A program made the translations under genes and the position numbers. Below are positions 23,814-30,137 of a DNA stretch of 37,538 bases, piece by piece. This DNA comes from Candidatus Methylomirabilota bacterium (lineage in GTDB: Bacteria; Methylomirabilota; Methylomirabilia; Rokubacteriales; CSP1-6): positions 1 through 37,538 of the forward strand of contig DASYTI010000206.1 in the NCBI GenBank assembly GCA_036002485.1, given 5' to 3'. The first letter of the stretch is position 1. Every line of letters begins with the position of its first letter. A model generated the notes under the pieces. That model was not told the DNA's origin, did no database searches, and saw nothing but the letters and a program-made list of their open reading frames with translations.

Positions 23814-24905
23814 CTAGCGGCGAAGCTCGGCGATGGCGCGCAGGGGCGTGCCATCCTTGCGTGTGATGGCGCGGCGGGTGGGCCTGGTCTGATTGCCGAA
23901 GGTGGGCTGCCAGCAGGAGTGCTTGCCCGCGCCGCCCACCACGATCACCGACAGATCATCAGCCGACTTCACGATGGGGAGCATGGTGTCGGGGGCGGCG
24001 GGCATCTTGCGGCTCTCCACGTGGTGACGCTGGTACTCCTCGCCGAGCCGCGCCAGGGGAAAGCGCGCGTGCTCGAAGACGAACTCCTTCACCTGCTGCT
24101 TGCCGTAGCCGTCGCGCGCGATGGTGGCGGCATGCTCGGGCCCGAGAGAGAGCAACGGATGGCCGGCCGCGAGCAGATTGTTGCTCCCGGCCTGTCCCAT
24201 GGCCCCGGCAATGATCTTGAGGATGCCCAGGCCCGTGTAGCTGTAGTGGTCCTGGATATTGTGCGGCCCCTCGCAGCCGATGGTGGTCACCGTGCTGACG
24301 TCGGCGGGAAAGCCGTGCTCGACGTGAAGCGGCTCCCAGGGATTCTCCGCCTCGTTCTCGGCGATGCAGTAGGCCATCTTGGCCGGGCTGCCCTGGGTGG
24401 CGCGGTCTCCTGTCCCGGGCAGCCCGCCCCCGACATTCATCAGGAGCAGCCGCACGGAGCGGCCAATGGTCATGTTGGCGCGGAAACCCTGGCCGAAGGC
24501 GTTGTAGCCGGCATTGATCTCGAGCTCGCGCGCGATGGGACCGTTGACGATCATGAGCGGGGCCACCGGATGTGTGGTGGCCTGGATGGAGTCGAGGTTG
24601 AAATCGGGATCGGCGAGGGCCTCGACCGCCGTGATGATCACGGGCAGATATTCGGGCTTGGCGCCGGCCATGACCGCGTTGATGGCGATCCGCTCCACGG
24701 TCGCCTCGCCCTGTCGCGGGGGGAGCACGGCCACCACCTCGCGCGGATCGCGATCGGTCCAGCGCAGAAACTCGCGCACGGCGTCGTCCGTGGGCGGAAC
24801 AATGGGCAGCCCGTCGGTCCAGCCGCGCTCCTGGTAGAGGCGGTTGATGGCCGTATAGGAGCCGTCCAGCCGGAAGGTCTTGGCCGCCGGGCCGGCCGTG
24901 CTCAT
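23814..24905 (-). CDS. Uncharacterised partner of the UGSC selenoprotein
   Basis: A 363-residue protein of a family I cannot name. No signal peptide or membrane segment is evident, so it is probably cytoplasmic. Conserved-looking blocks are 'RGWTDGLPIVPPTDDAV' near residues 28-44, 'PEYLPVIITAVEALADP', 'THPVAPLMIVNGPIARELEIN' (about 110-131), 'GCEGPHNIQDHYSYTG' with a Cys, and 'GGAGKHSCWQPTFGNQ' near the C-terminus with another Cys. ATG 24905 overlaps the selenoprotein stop (ATGA), so the two are translated together and probably act together. Given the Sec-containing redox or lyase-like partner, it may be the second subunit of the same enzyme (inference). The gene ends at the structured element at 23526-23813. 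Confidence 0.85.
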   Translation of the reverse strand: MSTAGPAAKTFRLDGSYTAINRLYQERGWTDGLPIVPPTDDAVREFLRWTDRDPREVVAVLPPRQGEATVERIAINAVMAGAKPEYLPVIITAVEALADPDFNLDSIQATTHPVAPLMIVNGPIARELEINAGYNAFGQGFRANMTIGRSVRLLLMNVGGGLPGTGDRATQGSPAKMAYCIAENEAENPWEPLHVEHGFPADVSTVTTIGCEGPHNIQDHYSYTGLGILKIIAGAMGQAGSNNLLAAGHPLLSLGPEHAATIARDGYGKQQVKEFVFEHARFPLARLGEEYQRHHVESRKMPAAPDTMLPIVKSADDLSVIVVGGAGKHSCWQPTFGNQTRPTRRAITRKDGTPLRAIAELRR

Positions 24906-25432
24906 GACCGGGTGACGGCGTTCACCACGGCCTCGATGGCCAGATCGGCCTTTTTCACCACCTCTTCCTCGTGAATGCCGCCCAGCGGATGGGGAATGAG
25001 GGCCAGGGGCAGCTCAGCCAGTCCGCGATTCCTCGCTTCGAGCGTGGCAAGCGACTCGAACTCCTTGGTGCCCATGACGACGGTGGGAATGCCGTGCTGC
25101 TCCAGCACGATGGCGCCGTGGATACTCCACGACGTGCACGACCCTCAGTCGGCGCTCCCGACGAGGACGAAGTCGCACGTCGTCAGGTCGGCGAGGATGG
25201 ACGGCGAGGGCGGGCCCGCGATGCCCTTCTCGCGCTTGATGACGTCCCGCACCCCGTAGCGCTCCTTCAAGCGCTCCACCACGGCCAGCATCAGGGTGCC
25301 GGCATTGGCCTTGCTGTTGTCGAGAATGCCCGCGCGCTTGCCTTGAAGGCTGGCCAGGCGCGGGGCCAGGCCCGTGGCCAGGATCCTGGGATCGGCCGTC
25401 GGGTCGTAGAGCAGGTCGCCGCTGTCGCTCAT
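24902..25432 (-). CDS. UGSC-motif selenoprotein (in-frame TGA = Sec96)
   Basis: Reading TGA at 25145-25147 as selenocysteine gives one 176-residue protein; otherwise it splits into a 95-residue front and an orphan tail with no proper start. The junction reads 'FVLVGSAD-U-GSCTSWS', the UGSC motif that defines a family of selenoproteins and Cys homologues. The N-terminal part includes 'LQGKRAGILDNSKANAGTLM' and the C-terminal 'LEQHGIPTVVMGTKEFESLA'. The U-G-x-C-T pattern followed by 'E..GIPTV' recalls the Sec region of glycine/betaine reductase GrdB (inference, distant). A strong GAGGAGGG precedes ATG 25432, and a hairpin suited to a bacterial SECIS follows the TGA. The stop overlaps the start of the 363-residue partner. 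SelA, SelB and SelC would be needed elsewhere in the genome. Confidence 0.87.
25105..25137 (-). promoter_or_regulatory. SECIS-like hairpin after the UGA codon
   Basis: In the mRNA, 13 nt after the UGA, CGUGGA (25131-25126) pairs perfectly with UCCACG (25122-25117) around a GUA loop. An outer GCACG/CGUGC pair (25137-25133 and 25109-25105) extends the structure. The apical loop, with G and U, lies 20-22 nt from the UGA, within the range of bacterial SECIS elements recognised by SelB. The structure lies inside the coding sequence, as expected in bacteria. Confidence 0.6.
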
Positions 25433-25542
25433 GGATTGCCCTCCTCTCTCCGGATCTCACATCACCTGCACGTGGCGTAGTCTACCTCCGCGGCTGATGT
25501 CGCGGGGCGCCCAAATGCGCGTGGTTCGACATTGTGAATAGG

Positions 25543-25571
25543 TTGACGATGTGGCGCGCGGGGACTAGGCT
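25543..25571 (+). promoter_or_regulatory. Predicted sigma-70 promoter
   Basis: TTGACG (25543-25548) and TAGGCT (25566-25571) are 17 nt apart, 57 nt before the GTG start of the D-aminoacylase-like gene. The gap is divergent from the selenoprotein gene, whose promoter must lie in the same 196 bp. Confidence 0.5.
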
Positions 25572-25628
25572 CACATCGTTTCCGACTCGCGACGCTCAGG
25601 GTCGACCACCCGAAGGAGGCCCCACGAC

Positions 25629-27314
25629 GTGCACGATCTCGTCATAGACAATGCGCGCATCGTCGATGGCCTGGGCTCCCCGGCGCGCGAGGGAAGCGTC
25701 GCGGTTGCCGGCGGCCGCATCGTCGCCATCGGGCGCGGCCTGGGCCCGTCCCGGCAGACGGTGAACGCGCAGGGGCTCTGCCTGGCCCCGGGCATCGTGG
25801 ACATCCATACGCACTATGACGCCCAGCTGACCTGGGATCCCTTCGCCACGCCGTCGACCTCGCTCGGCGTGACCACGGTGGTCATCGGCAATTGCGGCTT
25901 CACCATCGCCCCGTGCCGGCCTCAGAACCGCGACCTGATCATGCGCAATCTCACCCACGTGGAGGGCATGTCGCTCGACGCCATGCGCGCGGGCATTCAG
26001 TGGGACTTCGAGAGCTATCCGGAATATCTCGGCGCCATGGAGCGTCGCGGTGTCGTGCCGAACGTGGCCTCCTTCGTTGGGCATTCCTCGGTGCGCACGT
26101 ATGTCCTGGGCGAAGAGGCGGCCCGCCGCCCCGCCACGGACGCCGAGATCGCCGAGATGAAGCGCATCGTGCTCGAGGCGGTGAAGGCGGGGGCCATCGG
26201 CTTCGCCACCTCCACCCTGGAGCAACACAATGGCGAGAACGGCATTCCCATGCCCTCGCGGCTGGCCGACGAGAAAGAGATGCTCGCCCTCACGGGAGCG
26301 CTGGGCGAGGCCGGGCGGGGCATCTTCATGCTGACCAAGGGCATGACCTCGACCATTCCGTGGCTCGAGAAGATCGCGGGGCACAATGGCCGGCCCGTGA
26401 TGATCGCGGCCATGTTCGTGGATCCGGGCGATCCCGGCCGCGTCTTCAAGGAGCTGGGCGAGATCGAGCAGGCGCGCTCGCGCGGCCGCGAGCTCTGGGC
26501 GCAGGTAGGTTGCTTCCCGCTCGGCATGGAGTTCACGCTGCGCCACCCGTATCCGCTGGAGGCCCTCATGGCGTGGCGGCCCGCCCTGACCGCGCCCGAC
26601 GAGGTGCGCTACCGGCAGGTGCTGGCCGACCCGGGCTTTCGCCGCGCCCTGACCAAGGAGATGGGCGAGCCCGGCGTGCCGAATCGCATCAGCAATGCGA
26701 ACTGGGATTACCTGACCATCGCCGAGGTGAAGAAGCCCGCGCTCCGGCCTCTCGAGGGCAAGACCATCGGCGAGCTGGCCAGAGAGCAGAAGCGAGAGCC
26801 CTTCGATGTCTTTCTCGATTTCGGGCTGGCCGATGACCTCGACACCATGTTCGACTGCCGGCTCTTCAACACGGATGAAAAGAAGGTCTCCGAGCTCCTG
26901 CGCCACCCGTGCGCGGCCGTGGCCCTCTCGGATGCGGGCGCCCACCTCTCCTTCCTGTGCGACGCGGGCTTCGGCCTCCATCTCTTCGGGCACTGGGTGC
27001 GCGAGCGCGGCGACCTGACGCTCGAGCAGGCGGTGCGCGCGGTCACGAGCACGGTGGCCGACGCCTACCGCATCAAGGACCGCGGCCGGGTCGTGCCGGG
27101 GGCCTGGGCGGATCTGATCCTTTTCGATCCCGCCCGGGTCGGGCGAGGCGAGAAGCGCCGGGTGAATGATTTGCCCACGGGCGCCTCGCGCCTGGACACG
27201 CCGGCCGTCGGCCTCCACGGCGTCTGGGTCAATGGCGCGCGCACGGCGGACGAGGGCGGCGTCATCGCCGACTGTGGCCGGCCGGGGCGCGTGCTACGGG
27301 AGTTCGGGGCGTAG
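25629..27314 (+). CDS. N-acyl-D-amino-acid deacylase (D-aminoacylase family)
   Basis: A 561-residue amidohydrolase of the D-aminoacylase group (COG3653), which cleaves N-acyl-D-amino acids and related amides. The metal site includes His60/His62 in 'DIHTHYD', Cys89 in 'VVIGNCGFTIAP' (the bridging Cys typical of this group) and the late Asp in 'LSDAGAHLSF'. The N-terminal beta-sandwich 'DLVIDNARIVDGLG' and the closing 'GAWADLILFDP' match. Length is close to that of the longer family members. GTG 25629 follows GAAGGAGG at 25612-25619. No signal peptide is seen, so it acts in the cytoplasm. The gene stands alone but fits the amide-hydrolysis theme of the region. Confidence 0.9.
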   Translation: MHDLVIDNARIVDGLGSPAREGSVAVAGGRIVAIGRGLGPSRQTVNAQGLCLAPGIVDIHTHYDAQLTWDPFATPSTSLGVTTVVIGNCGFTIAPCRPQNRDLIMRNLTHVEGMSLDAMRAGIQWDFESYPEYLGAMERRGVVPNVASFVGHSSVRTYVLGEEAARRPATDAEIAEMKRIVLEAVKAGAIGFATSTLEQHNGENGIPMPSRLADEKEMLALTGALGEAGRGIFMLTKGMTSTIPWLEKIAGHNGRPVMIAAMFVDPGDPGRVFKELGEIEQARSRGRELWAQVGCFPLGMEFTLRHPYPLEALMAWRPALTAPDEVRYRQVLADPGFRRALTKEMGEPGVPNRISNANWDYLTIAEVKKPALRPLEGKTIGELAREQKREPFDVFLDFGLADDLDTMFDCRLFNTDEKKVSELLRHPCAAVALSDAGAHLSFLCDAGFGLHLFGHWVRERGDLTLEQAVRAVTSTVADAYRIKDRGRVVPGAWADLILFDPARVGRGEKRRVNDLPTGASRLDTPAVGLHGVWVNGARTADEGGVIADCGRPGRVLREFGA

Positions 27315-27357
27315 GCGCGCGCCGTCGCGGACCCCGTGATCCGCTAGAGGACCGGCA

Positions 27358-29673
27358 CTGACCGCCATCCTGCTGCTCTACTCCGCCACCATGTTCGTGG
27401 GGGCGACGCTCCTCTTCGTCGTCCAGCCCATGGTGGGCAAGATGGTCCTCCCGCTCCTCGGCGGCACCCCGGCCGTGTGGAGCACGTGCATGGTCTTCTT
27501 CCAGGCCGCGCTCCTGGCCGGGTATGCGTATGCGCACGCGAGCACGGCGTGGCTCGGCGCCTCTCCCCGTCAGGCCCTGCTCCATCTGGGCATCCTCGCC
27601 ATACCCTTGGCCGTCCTGCCCCTGGCCGTGAATCCGCACTTCTTGCACGGCGGCGAGGCGAACCCGGTGCTGGATGTGCTGCTGCTCCTCTCCGTGTCGG
27701 TCGGGCTGCCCTTCTTCGTGGTCAGCGCCACCGCGCCCCTGCTCCAGAAGTGGTTCAGCCACACGGGACATCCGGCGGCCCACGATCCGTATTTCCTCTA
27801 TGCCGCGAGCAATCTCGGCAGCATGCTGGCCCTCCTGGGCTATCCAACCCTGATCGAGCCGCGGCTGCATCTGCGAGGCGAGGGCTGGATGACGCAGACG
27901 CGGCTGTGGAGTCTCGGTTACCTCTCGCTCGCCGTCCTGATCGCGCTCTGCGCGTTCGTGCTCTGGCGACGCGTGGTGACAGCCGCGCCCGTCGAACCAT
28001 GGGAGGCGCCGGAGCCATCGGATCAGGCCGTCTCGCTCGTCCATGAGCCGCCGGGCCTGGCCCTCCGGCTGCGCTGGATCATTCTCGCCTTCGTGCCCTC
28101 GAGCCTCTTGATCGGCGCCACCACCTACATCACGACGGATCTGGCCGCCGTGCCTCTGCTGTGGGTCTTGCCGCTTGCCGTCTATCTGCTGAGCTTCATC
28201 CTGACCTTCGGCCACTGGCCCGACCGGCTCCATCGCCTGGTCACCACGGCCACCCTCCCCGTCATCCTGGTCGTCCTCTTTCTCATGATCTCGGCTTTCA
28301 AGCAGCGCATCTGGATCACCATGCTCTGGCATTTCCTGCTGCTCTTGCTCGTCGCCCTCGCCTGCCACGGTGAGCTGGCCCGCCGCCGGCCGGCTTCCAG
28401 ACACCTGACCGAGTTCTATCTCCTGCTCTCCGTGGGCGGGGTGCTGGGCGGCCTCTTCAACGCGCTCATCGCCCCTGTCGTCTTCAGGTCGCTCGTGGAG
28501 TACCCGCTGATGATGGTGCTGGCCGCCGTGCTCGTGAGCGCGCGCGGGCACGCCTCCGGCAGACCTCTTTGGGCAGACCTGGGTCTGGCCCTCGCCGTGG
28601 TCGCCCTGGGGCTCGTCCTCTATTCGGACTCGCTCAGCGTGCGGATCGATTTCGAGTTTCTCTCCGGTCTGCTCAAGATCCCGTCTGACGCGGCCGTGGA
28701 GTGGCTGACCCCGATCCGGCGGGCCATGAACAAGCTCCTGATGTATGGACTTCCGCTCGCCGGAGCCTTCTTCCTCCGACGGCGCCCCTGGGTCATGGGC
28801 CTTGCCCTGGGCGGCCTGCTCCTCGTGGCAGGCTACATCGATGCGCGGCGGGACGACCAGATCCGCCTGGCCCGGAGCTTCTTCGGCGTGCTCCAGGTCT
28901 CCCGCGACGAGAGCTACACCGAGCTGCACCACGGCACCACGCTGCACGGCCGCCAGAGCCGTGATCCCGCGCGGCGAGCCGAGCCGCTCTCGTACTACTC
29001 GCGGGAAGGGCCCGTGGGAAGGCTCTTCGCCGAGCTCGATCAGCGCACCATCGTGCGGCGCATGGCTGTCATCGGCCTGGGGACGGGGACGCTGGCCGCC
29101 TATGCGCGGCCCGGGGATGCCGTCACCTTCTACGAGATCGATCCGCTGGTCCGCGACATCGCCTTCGATCGCCGGTATTTCACTTACGTGTCGGACGCGG
29201 AGGCCCGGGGCGTCTCCATCCGCACGGAGCTGGGCGATGCCCGCATTCGCCTCGACGCCGTACGCAAGGAGCGGCCCGGCGAGCGCTACGACCTGATCGT
29301 GGTCGATGCCTTCAGCTCGGACGCCATTCCCGTGCATCTGCTCACGCGCGAGGCCCTGCGCCTCTATTTCGACATGCTCAACGTGGGCGGCCTGCTCGCG
29401 CTGCATCTCTCGAACCGCTATCTCGCCCTCGAGCCGGTGGTGGCCAACCTCGCCGAGGAGGCGCAGCTGGGCGGGCAGCTGATCTGGTCGGACGAGTCGC
29501 CGCCGACCGACGGCGCCACCAGCTCGACCTGGGCGGTGCTGGCCCGGACGCGGGCGGCCCTCGGGAACATGGCCCGCGACGAGAAGTGGAATGCCACCAA
29601 GCTCGAGGGCAATCCACGCGTCGGCCTCTGGACGGATGACTTCCACAACTTGCTGAGGGTATTTTCCTGGTGA
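27358..29673 (+). CDS. Membrane protein fused to spermidine synthase-like domain
   Basis: About 771 residues. The first 500 or so form some 10-12 membrane segments, beginning 'ILLLYSATMFVGATLLFVVQ' and 'MVGKMVLPLLGGTPAVW', as in fused MFS/spermidine synthase proteins. The last 270 form a spermidine-synthase/SAM-methyltransferase-like domain with 'MAVIGLGTGTLAAYARPGD', 'VTFYEIDPLV' and 'YDLIVVDAFSSDAIPVHLL'. Whether it makes polyamines is unknown for this fused group. The usual N-terminus begins before the first ATG (27391). CTG 27358 fits well because AGAGGA sits 6 nt before it and an in-frame stop (27337) rules out a much earlier start; ATG 27391 remains possible and would clip the first membrane segment. 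A hairpin follows the stop. Confidence 0.87.
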   Translation: MTAILLLYSATMFVGATLLFVVQPMVGKMVLPLLGGTPAVWSTCMVFFQAALLAGYAYAHASTAWLGASPRQALLHLGILAIPLAVLPLAVNPHFLHGGEANPVLDVLLLLSVSVGLPFFVVSATAPLLQKWFSHTGHPAAHDPYFLYAASNLGSMLALLGYPTLIEPRLHLRGEGWMTQTRLWSLGYLSLAVLIALCAFVLWRRVVTAAPVEPWEAPEPSDQAVSLVHEPPGLALRLRWIILAFVPSSLLIGATTYITTDLAAVPLLWVLPLAVYLLSFILTFGHWPDRLHRLVTTATLPVILVVLFLMISAFKQRIWITMLWHFLLLLLVALACHGELARRRPASRHLTEFYLLLSVGGVLGGLFNALIAPVVFRSLVEYPLMMVLAAVLVSARGHASGRPLWADLGLALAVVALGLVLYSDSLSVRIDFEFLSGLLKIPSDAAVEWLTPIRRAMNKLLMYGLPLAGAFFLRRRPWVMGLALGGLLLVAGYIDARRDDQIRLARSFFGVLQVSRDESYTELHHGTTLHGRQSRDPARRAEPLSYYSREGPVGRLFAELDQRTIVRRMAVIGLGTGTLAAYARPGDAVTFYEIDPLVRDIAFDRRYFTYVSDAEARGVSIRTELGDARIRLDAVRKERPGERYDLIVVDAFSSDAIPVHLLTREALRLYFDMLNVGGLLALHLSNRYLALEPVVANLAEEAQLGGQLIWSDESPPTDGATSSTWAVLARTRAALGNMARDEKWNATKLEGNPRVGLWTDDFHNLLRVFSW

Positions 29674-29683
29674 GGCAGGCATG

Positions 29684-29723
29684 CCGACGCCGGAGCGCCC
29701 ACCGTGGGGCGGTCCGGCGTCGG
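29684..29723. terminator. Bidirectional hairpin between convergent genes
   Basis: A perfect 11-bp stem (29684-29694 with 29713-29723) encloses a second CGCCC/GGGCG pair. It lies between the convergent ends of the membrane-fusion gene and the secreted 127-residue protein. There is no long T-tract on either side. Confidence 0.6.
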
Positions 29724-29753
29724 GTTCAGCGGGACGGGACTGTGGGAATCTCG

Positions 29754-30137
29754 CTATTGATTGTCAGCCGTGGGCCGCACGGCCTGCACCTGGACGGCGA
29801 CCGCGCGCTTCCCTTGCGGCTCGACCTCGATGGTGACGTAGTCGCCCGCGCGAAGATCGGAGGGCTCGAGCGCGCGCTCCGTGAACGCAAACGGCCACCC
29901 AAGGCTTCCGTCCGGCGTCCGCTCCGCCAGCGCAACCCTCGTGCCCGGCGTGATCTGGAAGACGCGACGGGCGGGAGCCGTACTCGGACCACGCCAGGGT
30001 CCCATCTCTTCGATGGTGATGGTGCGCTGATCGGCGGCCACGATGACGCCGGAATGCTTTTCGCTGCTCGCCGCCCATATGGGCGACGCCGTCAAAAGCA
30101 GACCGAGGGCAAAGCCAACGCTGGAATATCGCATCAT
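29754..30137 (-). CDS. Secreted protein of unknown function, 127 residues
   Basis: A signal peptide ('VGFALGLLLTASPIWAASS', cleavage near residue 23) is followed by a small beta-rich domain: 'HSGVIVAADQRTITIEEMGPW', 'RVFQITPGTRVALAER' and 'GDYVTIEVEPQGKRAVAVQVQAV', split over residues 27-123. The layout is that of a small OB- or DUF5666-like exported protein ('V..v....ti.i', 'GD.V.ve...'), but no family is assigned. Two adjacent ATGs are possible (30137 and 30134); the AGGAGG is better spaced for the second. The 234 bp upstream, to the end of the DUF3300 gene, hold no gene or recognisable promoter. Confidence 0.75.
   Translation of the reverse strand: MMRYSSVGFALGLLLTASPIWAASSEKHSGVIVAADQRTITIEEMGPWRGPSTAPARRVFQITPGTRVALAERTPDGSLGWPFAFTERALEPSDLRAGDYVTIEVEPQGKRAVAVQVQAVRPTADNQ

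Follow-up and report, generated by a model that had tools for sequence, protein, structure and literature searches.

The window analysed here is a stretch of 37,538 nucleotides from a soil bacterium related to the Rokubacteria, and constitutes contig C206 of a draft genome that totals 4.45 Mb in 253 contigs and has a completeness of 95.7%. The locus under study comprises the following features:

24902..25432, minus strand: putative UGSC-family selenoprotein gene, 176 aa with U96 (read-through translation and PF24696 match)
25145..25147, minus strand: in-frame TGA at codon 96, predicted Sec codon (sequence; Cys aligned in homologues)
25114..25134, minus strand: SECIS-like hairpin, stem 25134-25126 with 25122-25114, loop 25125-25123 (GUA), AGU codon 25126-25124
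24902..24905, minus strand: ATGA overlap of the UGSC terminal TGA and the partner start ATG (sequence)
23814..24905, minus strand: partner gene, 363 aa (ORF directly downstream; no Pfam or NCBIfam family)

The UGSC gene starts with an ATG at 25432-25430, preceded at a short distance by AGGAGG, and ends with a terminal TGA at 24904-24902; when the in-frame TGA is read through, the product contains the stretch ...VGSAD-U-GSCTSWSIH.... An earlier note on this DNA, which was silent on the strand, had taken the in-frame TGA to join the two halves of one UGSC protein, and this was borne out by a profile search with the 176-residue translation, in which PF24696 ('UGSC family') matched residues 9-174, on both sides of the TGA (1.5e-44; 152.6 bits, gathering cut-off 25), while for NF041046 the score, with U entered as C, was 124.5 bits where the cut-off is 125. 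The note had also foreseen that automatic annotation would end at residue 95; the mechanical ORF list indeed gives only the 95-residue front at 25145-25432, and annotation would shorten the gene accordingly. The motif in the window protein reads D95 U96 G97 S98 C99, i.e., [U/C]-G-S-C after an aspartate. Its D, U/C, G and C columns are invariant in an alignment of 54 sequences, in which N39, D95, G97, C99, E111 and F125 are the invariant residues. The UGSC-containing (seleno)protein family goes back to Zhang and Gladyshev 2008 (PMC2398784; PF24696, NF041046), and is still counted among the largely uncharacterised selenoproteins (PMC13188914). Both the family and the fact that it includes selenoproteins are already known, and the window gene, being of the same sequence family with the UGSC motif and Sec or Cys there, is a further member that is no different in kind. 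The genome harbors six UGSC copies including that of the window, all six with a TGA, and in 60 related genomes every PF24696 match among those listed contains one TGA and no other stop. One homologue, L132 (G053:C175, 2233-2718 minus), has U-S-S-C in place of U-G-S-C.

Cys homologues carrying CGSC were found, with the Cys exactly in the U96 column; this form occurs in haloarchaea, sphingomonads and actinobacteria, and the TGA form in Rokubacteria and a few Chloroflexi, Myxococcales and actinobacteria. The window gene thus has what is looked for in a bacterial selenoprotein gene, an in-frame UGA aligned with Cys and homology on both sides of it. It also has what is looked for in a bacterial SECIS element, a hairpin soon after the UGA with G-U in the apical loop: an AGU codon extends into the apical loop 18 bases past the TGA. 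All 41 distinct TGA-type sequences have AGU at the loop, versus none of the 12 Cys-type sequences encoding Ser there (p 4e-12), a contrast that may in part reflect codon habit since the two sets come from different lineages; as a baseline, AGT makes up 2.8% of the Ser codons in 19 window genes. In the hairpin stem, pairing holds in 92% of cells, versus at most 47% for slid versions, and pairs 19-29 and 21-27 vary on both sides. None of 500 shuffles reached its pairing score or its covariation score, although the number of pairs with double changes (two) is not above that in shuffles. Taken from the window's gene alone, the hairpin has a folding energy only modestly better than that of shuffled sequences (z of -2.3 over 60 nt and -0.8 over 50 nt), and an Rfam search across the UGSC gene returned no relevant family. 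Comparison with a congener gave a dN/dS of 0.10 before the TGA and 0.06 after it, with 15 synonymous and 3 non-synonymous differences past the TGA, indicating purifying selection on both sides. Furthermore, in the fetched set of named genomes, selA is present in 6 of 6 that harbor a TGA-type UGSC gene versus 10 of 36 with Cys-type genes only. The TGA could be read as another amino acid (e.g., Cys or Trp through a suppressor tRNA) or be a sequencing error for TGC, and the Cys in homologues and the lack of a tRNA-Sec in the draft would fit this; however, the TGA recurs in every relative copy among the matches listed, from independent assemblies, the AGU hairpin is specific to TGA-type genes, and every fetched genome with a TGA-type gene has selA, so we consider this extremely improbable. 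On the strength of the family match, the Cys homologues, the conserved hairpin and the purifying selection past the TGA, the claim of a UGSC-family selenoprotein is supported, and the window gene almost certainly encodes one, as far as sequence evidence goes.

The earlier note had named the absence of selA, selB and selC from the same genome as grounds for rejecting this claim. In the draft, selD was found, while profile and DNA searches of the window's own assembly, on which the absence of the other genes rests, gave no match for selA and only sub-threshold matches for selB. The hits of the tRNA-Sec model were likewise sub-threshold, and the eight of these loci that were fetched are ordinary tRNAs (Leu, Ser, Trp, Arg, Gly and others). 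Read to the letter, the draft thus lacks these three genes, and one might suppose that the lineage has lost Sec decoding and that the gene now ends at residue 95, as a pseudogene or a short protein. However, purifying selection continues past the TGA, the TGA is kept in all six UGSC genes and in the better of two selD copies (...AACAG-U-ASK...), and selA is present in 56 of 60 relatives, including a congener with a 96%-identical UGSC orthologue, all of which weighs against rejection. Moreover, it is not the sel genes alone that are missing, but their neighbours too. In three congeners tRNA-Sec(UCA) lies beside selA, followed by a SelB-like frame in the one that was read fully. Of the nearest congener's 8.6-kb sel region, its non-sel genes included, only short dispersed elements were found here, and the 14-kb sel region of another congener is mostly missing, its far left flank being present on contig C219. 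Contig C84 was considered as a remnant of the sel block and rejected, since its match lies outside selA/selB, in a tatA-like gene (by eye). As the sel genes are gone together with their surroundings, relatives have selA and a TGA-containing selD is kept, the missing genes are likely best explained by a lost contig; alternatively, the sel block may have been deleted recently. Loss of Sec decoding with an end at residue 95 we regard as very improbable. Nor is the window a stray contig from another phylum, as it is collinear over 24331-30043, at 84-91% DNA identity with gaps aside, with L016, a Candidatus Rokuibacteriota MAG. L016 has a UGSC orthologue at 96% identity (95% by tblastn), and its selA matches have the same coordinates as those of G004, which is listed as the same genus. 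Separately, the drafts of three other relatives, G035 (listed as 100% complete), G003 and G025, have TGA-holding UGSC genes and no selA that we could find. A dispersed DNA element of ~35-125 bp, at 70-92% identity, occurs at L109:8436-8580, just past selA, and in about ten places in the window's genome (G000).

Directly downstream of the UGSC gene lies the 363-aa partner gene, joined to it by the ATGA overlap; such a junction is a typical sign of translational coupling. The partner matches no family in Pfam or NCBIfam, and is annotated as 'hypothetical protein' on annotated plasmids; it represents a conserved family missing from both databases. A relative of about 350 aa adjoins UGSC, either upstream or downstream, at nearly all loci: among 102 UGSC copies, the partner shares one ORF with UGSC in 28, lies on the same strand within 1.5 kb in 71 and is 3 kb off in one, while for the other two the fetched stretch contains no partner. 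In the fused forms UGSC comes first, followed by a linker of ~25-50 residues, and the window's own genome contains such a fusion on C14 (L128), where a Sec-type UGSC at 1451-1942 minus and the partner form one ORF of ~500 aa. Since they are fused and constantly adjacent, UGSC and its partner very likely act as one functional, two-component unit, judging from gene arrangement. The 'Unknown_1' domain described in a UGSC fusion in 2008 (PMC2398784) may be the same partner. The partner is not itself a selenoprotein, its in-frame TGA codons being terminal stops only, and its family has no invariant Cys. A relationship to GrdE was rejected (profile comparison prob 0.2, with three GrdE-like sequences only), and so was a class I fumarase fold, for which there were only weak PDB matches (E about 1e-3, TM 0.26). 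Sequence searches of the PDB with UGSC or the partner gave no convincing homologue.

The AF2 model of UGSC, built with 54 sequences (pLDDT 92.8), predicts five strands alternating with helices in a flavodoxin-like arrangement, with U96 just ahead of a helix and after strand 3. Its PDB structure matches are mostly Rossmann- or flavodoxin-like domains with TM around or below 0.5. No thioredoxin fold appears in the model, which therefore speaks against the Trx-like fold proposed in 2008. The window's relatives also carry GrdB proteins and short GrdB/PrdB-like selenoproteins, and hhalign aligned UGSC with the Sec domain of the GrdB/PrdB-like proteins at prob 95.6 and E 1.3e-8, with 31% identity over 74 columns, placing Sec on Sec and continuing through the helix and the G-[IL]-P-T strand. 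The score was 57.6, whereas 60 column shuffles gave 20 at best and the reversed profile 15.6, and with the four UxxC motif columns masked it was still 43.1 (E 3.5e-6). None of the 54 UGSC members was listed for PF07355 by HMMER up to E 10. We conclude that UGSC is very probably homologous, if distantly, to the Sec domain of GrdB/PrdB.

Thioredoxin genes lie beside several UGSC loci. On an Arthrobacter plasmid the gene order is trxB-trxA-partner-UGSC; in Roseovarius it is partner-UGSC-trxB, beside a TRAP transporter and a CoA transferase; and in Variovorax trxB is near UGSC. Because these plasmid loci were hand-picked from 24 hits, we counted trxB across the contig set, which has 62 copies in 223 Mb; 4 UGSC loci have trxB at a distance of about 6 kb or less, against an expectation of 0.13 (P about 1e-5). 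No trx gene is near the window's own copy. A thioredoxin reductase-thioredoxin fusion at L041 4226-5572, in a Mycobacteriaceae MAG, lies upstream of a UGSC-partner fusion gene. UGSC is also found near TRAP/TTT transporters, SDRs, CoA transferases, acyl-CoA dehydrogenases and DUF6282, a set that suggests catabolism of small organic acids or amides. In the window the neighbours are amidohydrolases, an amidase, a luciferase-like monooxygenase and oligopeptide-type ABC transporters (the transporters identified by eye).

Chemistry of the GrdB/PrdB type is known from anaerobic amino-acid fermenters. UGSC resembles GrdB/PrdB (PF07355; glycine/sarcosine/betaine and D-proline reductases) in the succession of strand, U-x-x-C, helix and G-[IL]-P-T, and in the two-component architecture. 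Unlike them, it is a short stand-alone domain with no direct PF07355 match, it is widespread with Cys for Sec in actinobacteria, proteobacteria and haloarchaea, and its partner is not GrdE-like, so that a pyruvoyl partner of the GrdE/PrdA type is lacking. In glycine reductase, electrons pass from NADPH through thioredoxin reductase and thioredoxin to GrdA/GrdB (PMC3091704); for UGSC, the likeness in thioredoxin-linked reduction comes from nearby trx genes only. The substrate carbon is the presumed target of the GrdB Sec (PMC10838667). A further precedent may be seen in the monofluoroacetate-reducing Cloacibacillus, where the GrdB-like selenoprotein FarB is thought to attack the C-F bond, and its GrdE-like partner FarE lacks the pyruvoyl-processing cysteines (PMC10838667), much as the UGSC partner lacks an invariant Cys. 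However, FarB and FarE are true relatives of GrdB and GrdE, whereas the UGSC partner is unrelated to GrdE; therefore, substrate activation must differ from that in the GrdB system.

Taking these lines together, we favour, as the reasonably probable best overall explanation, a two-component reductase that depends on thioredoxin and in which the partner holds the substrate that Sec attacks. In this scheme the UGA at codon 96 would be decoded as Sec with the aid of the hairpin just downstream, a step that is well supported. UGSC would form the catalytic half and the 363-aa protein the other half, as adjacency and natural fusions suggest, and Sec would sit where the helix following strand 3 begins, in a flavodoxin-like domain distantly akin to the GrdB/PrdB Sec domain. 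The selenolate might then attack a polarised carbon-heteroatom bond in a small substrate of carboxylate or amide type, held together with the partner, by analogy with the GrdB-type systems; Cys99 of the UxxC motif may resolve the intermediate, leaving a selenosulfide; and thioredoxin/thioredoxin reductase would reduce the latter and thereby reset the enzyme. Cys-type members presumably carry out the same chemistry with a thiolate. That the reaction itself is a reductive cleavage is slightly favoured on grounds of analogy. The suggestion of a redox or reductive-cleavage enzyme, a guess when the earlier note made it, has become a better-supported reading through the predicted GrdB/PrdB-like domain and the thioredoxin genes nearby. 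The protein might instead be a selenoprotein of general thiol/peroxide redox function (selenosulfide exchange, peroxidase or disulfide reductase) that cleaves no substrate, as would suit the UxxC motif, the thioredoxin system nearby, the Trx-like fold assumed in the 2008 paper (PMC2398784) and the peroxidase activity reported for GrdB itself by a study cited in PMC3091704. Yet the predicted fold is flavodoxin-like rather than that of thioredoxin, and the constant ~350-aa partner and the catabolic, transporter-bearing neighbourhoods point to a specific substrate, and we hold a general redox function to be rather unlikely.

There is perhaps an even chance that UGSC and its partner make up a new class of thioredoxin-coupled reductive-cleavage enzyme, composed of a compact GrdB/PrdB-type Sec/Cys domain and an unrelated, hitherto undescribed substrate-binding subunit, which would occur beyond the anaerobic amino-acid fermenters, in haloarchaea and in bacteria of soil and water, often in multiple copies per genome that may differ in substrate. 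The literature yielded no biochemistry for UGSC members and no mention of a GrdB/PrdB link, a partner family or a thioredoxin association, in a search that covered subscription journals sparsely, and an earlier mention is possible. The homology to GrdB/PrdB, the constant partner and the thioredoxin connection make the function of UGSC directly testable.

Two further observations were made along the way. Relatives of the window have short GrdB/PrdB-like selenoprotein genes that stand alone and carry motifs including UPVC, UPIC, UPFC and UQLC (L148, L163, L159, L154, L161, L165, L164, L152, L156, L153 and L155); these are probably under-annotated because their PF07355 matches are only weak. Finally, positions 27391-29673 of the window hold a 760-aa ORF with no Pfam match, which has a membrane N-terminal half and a C-terminal half that by eye resembles spermidine synthase, and an ORF resembling it adjoins another UGSC copy (L129).
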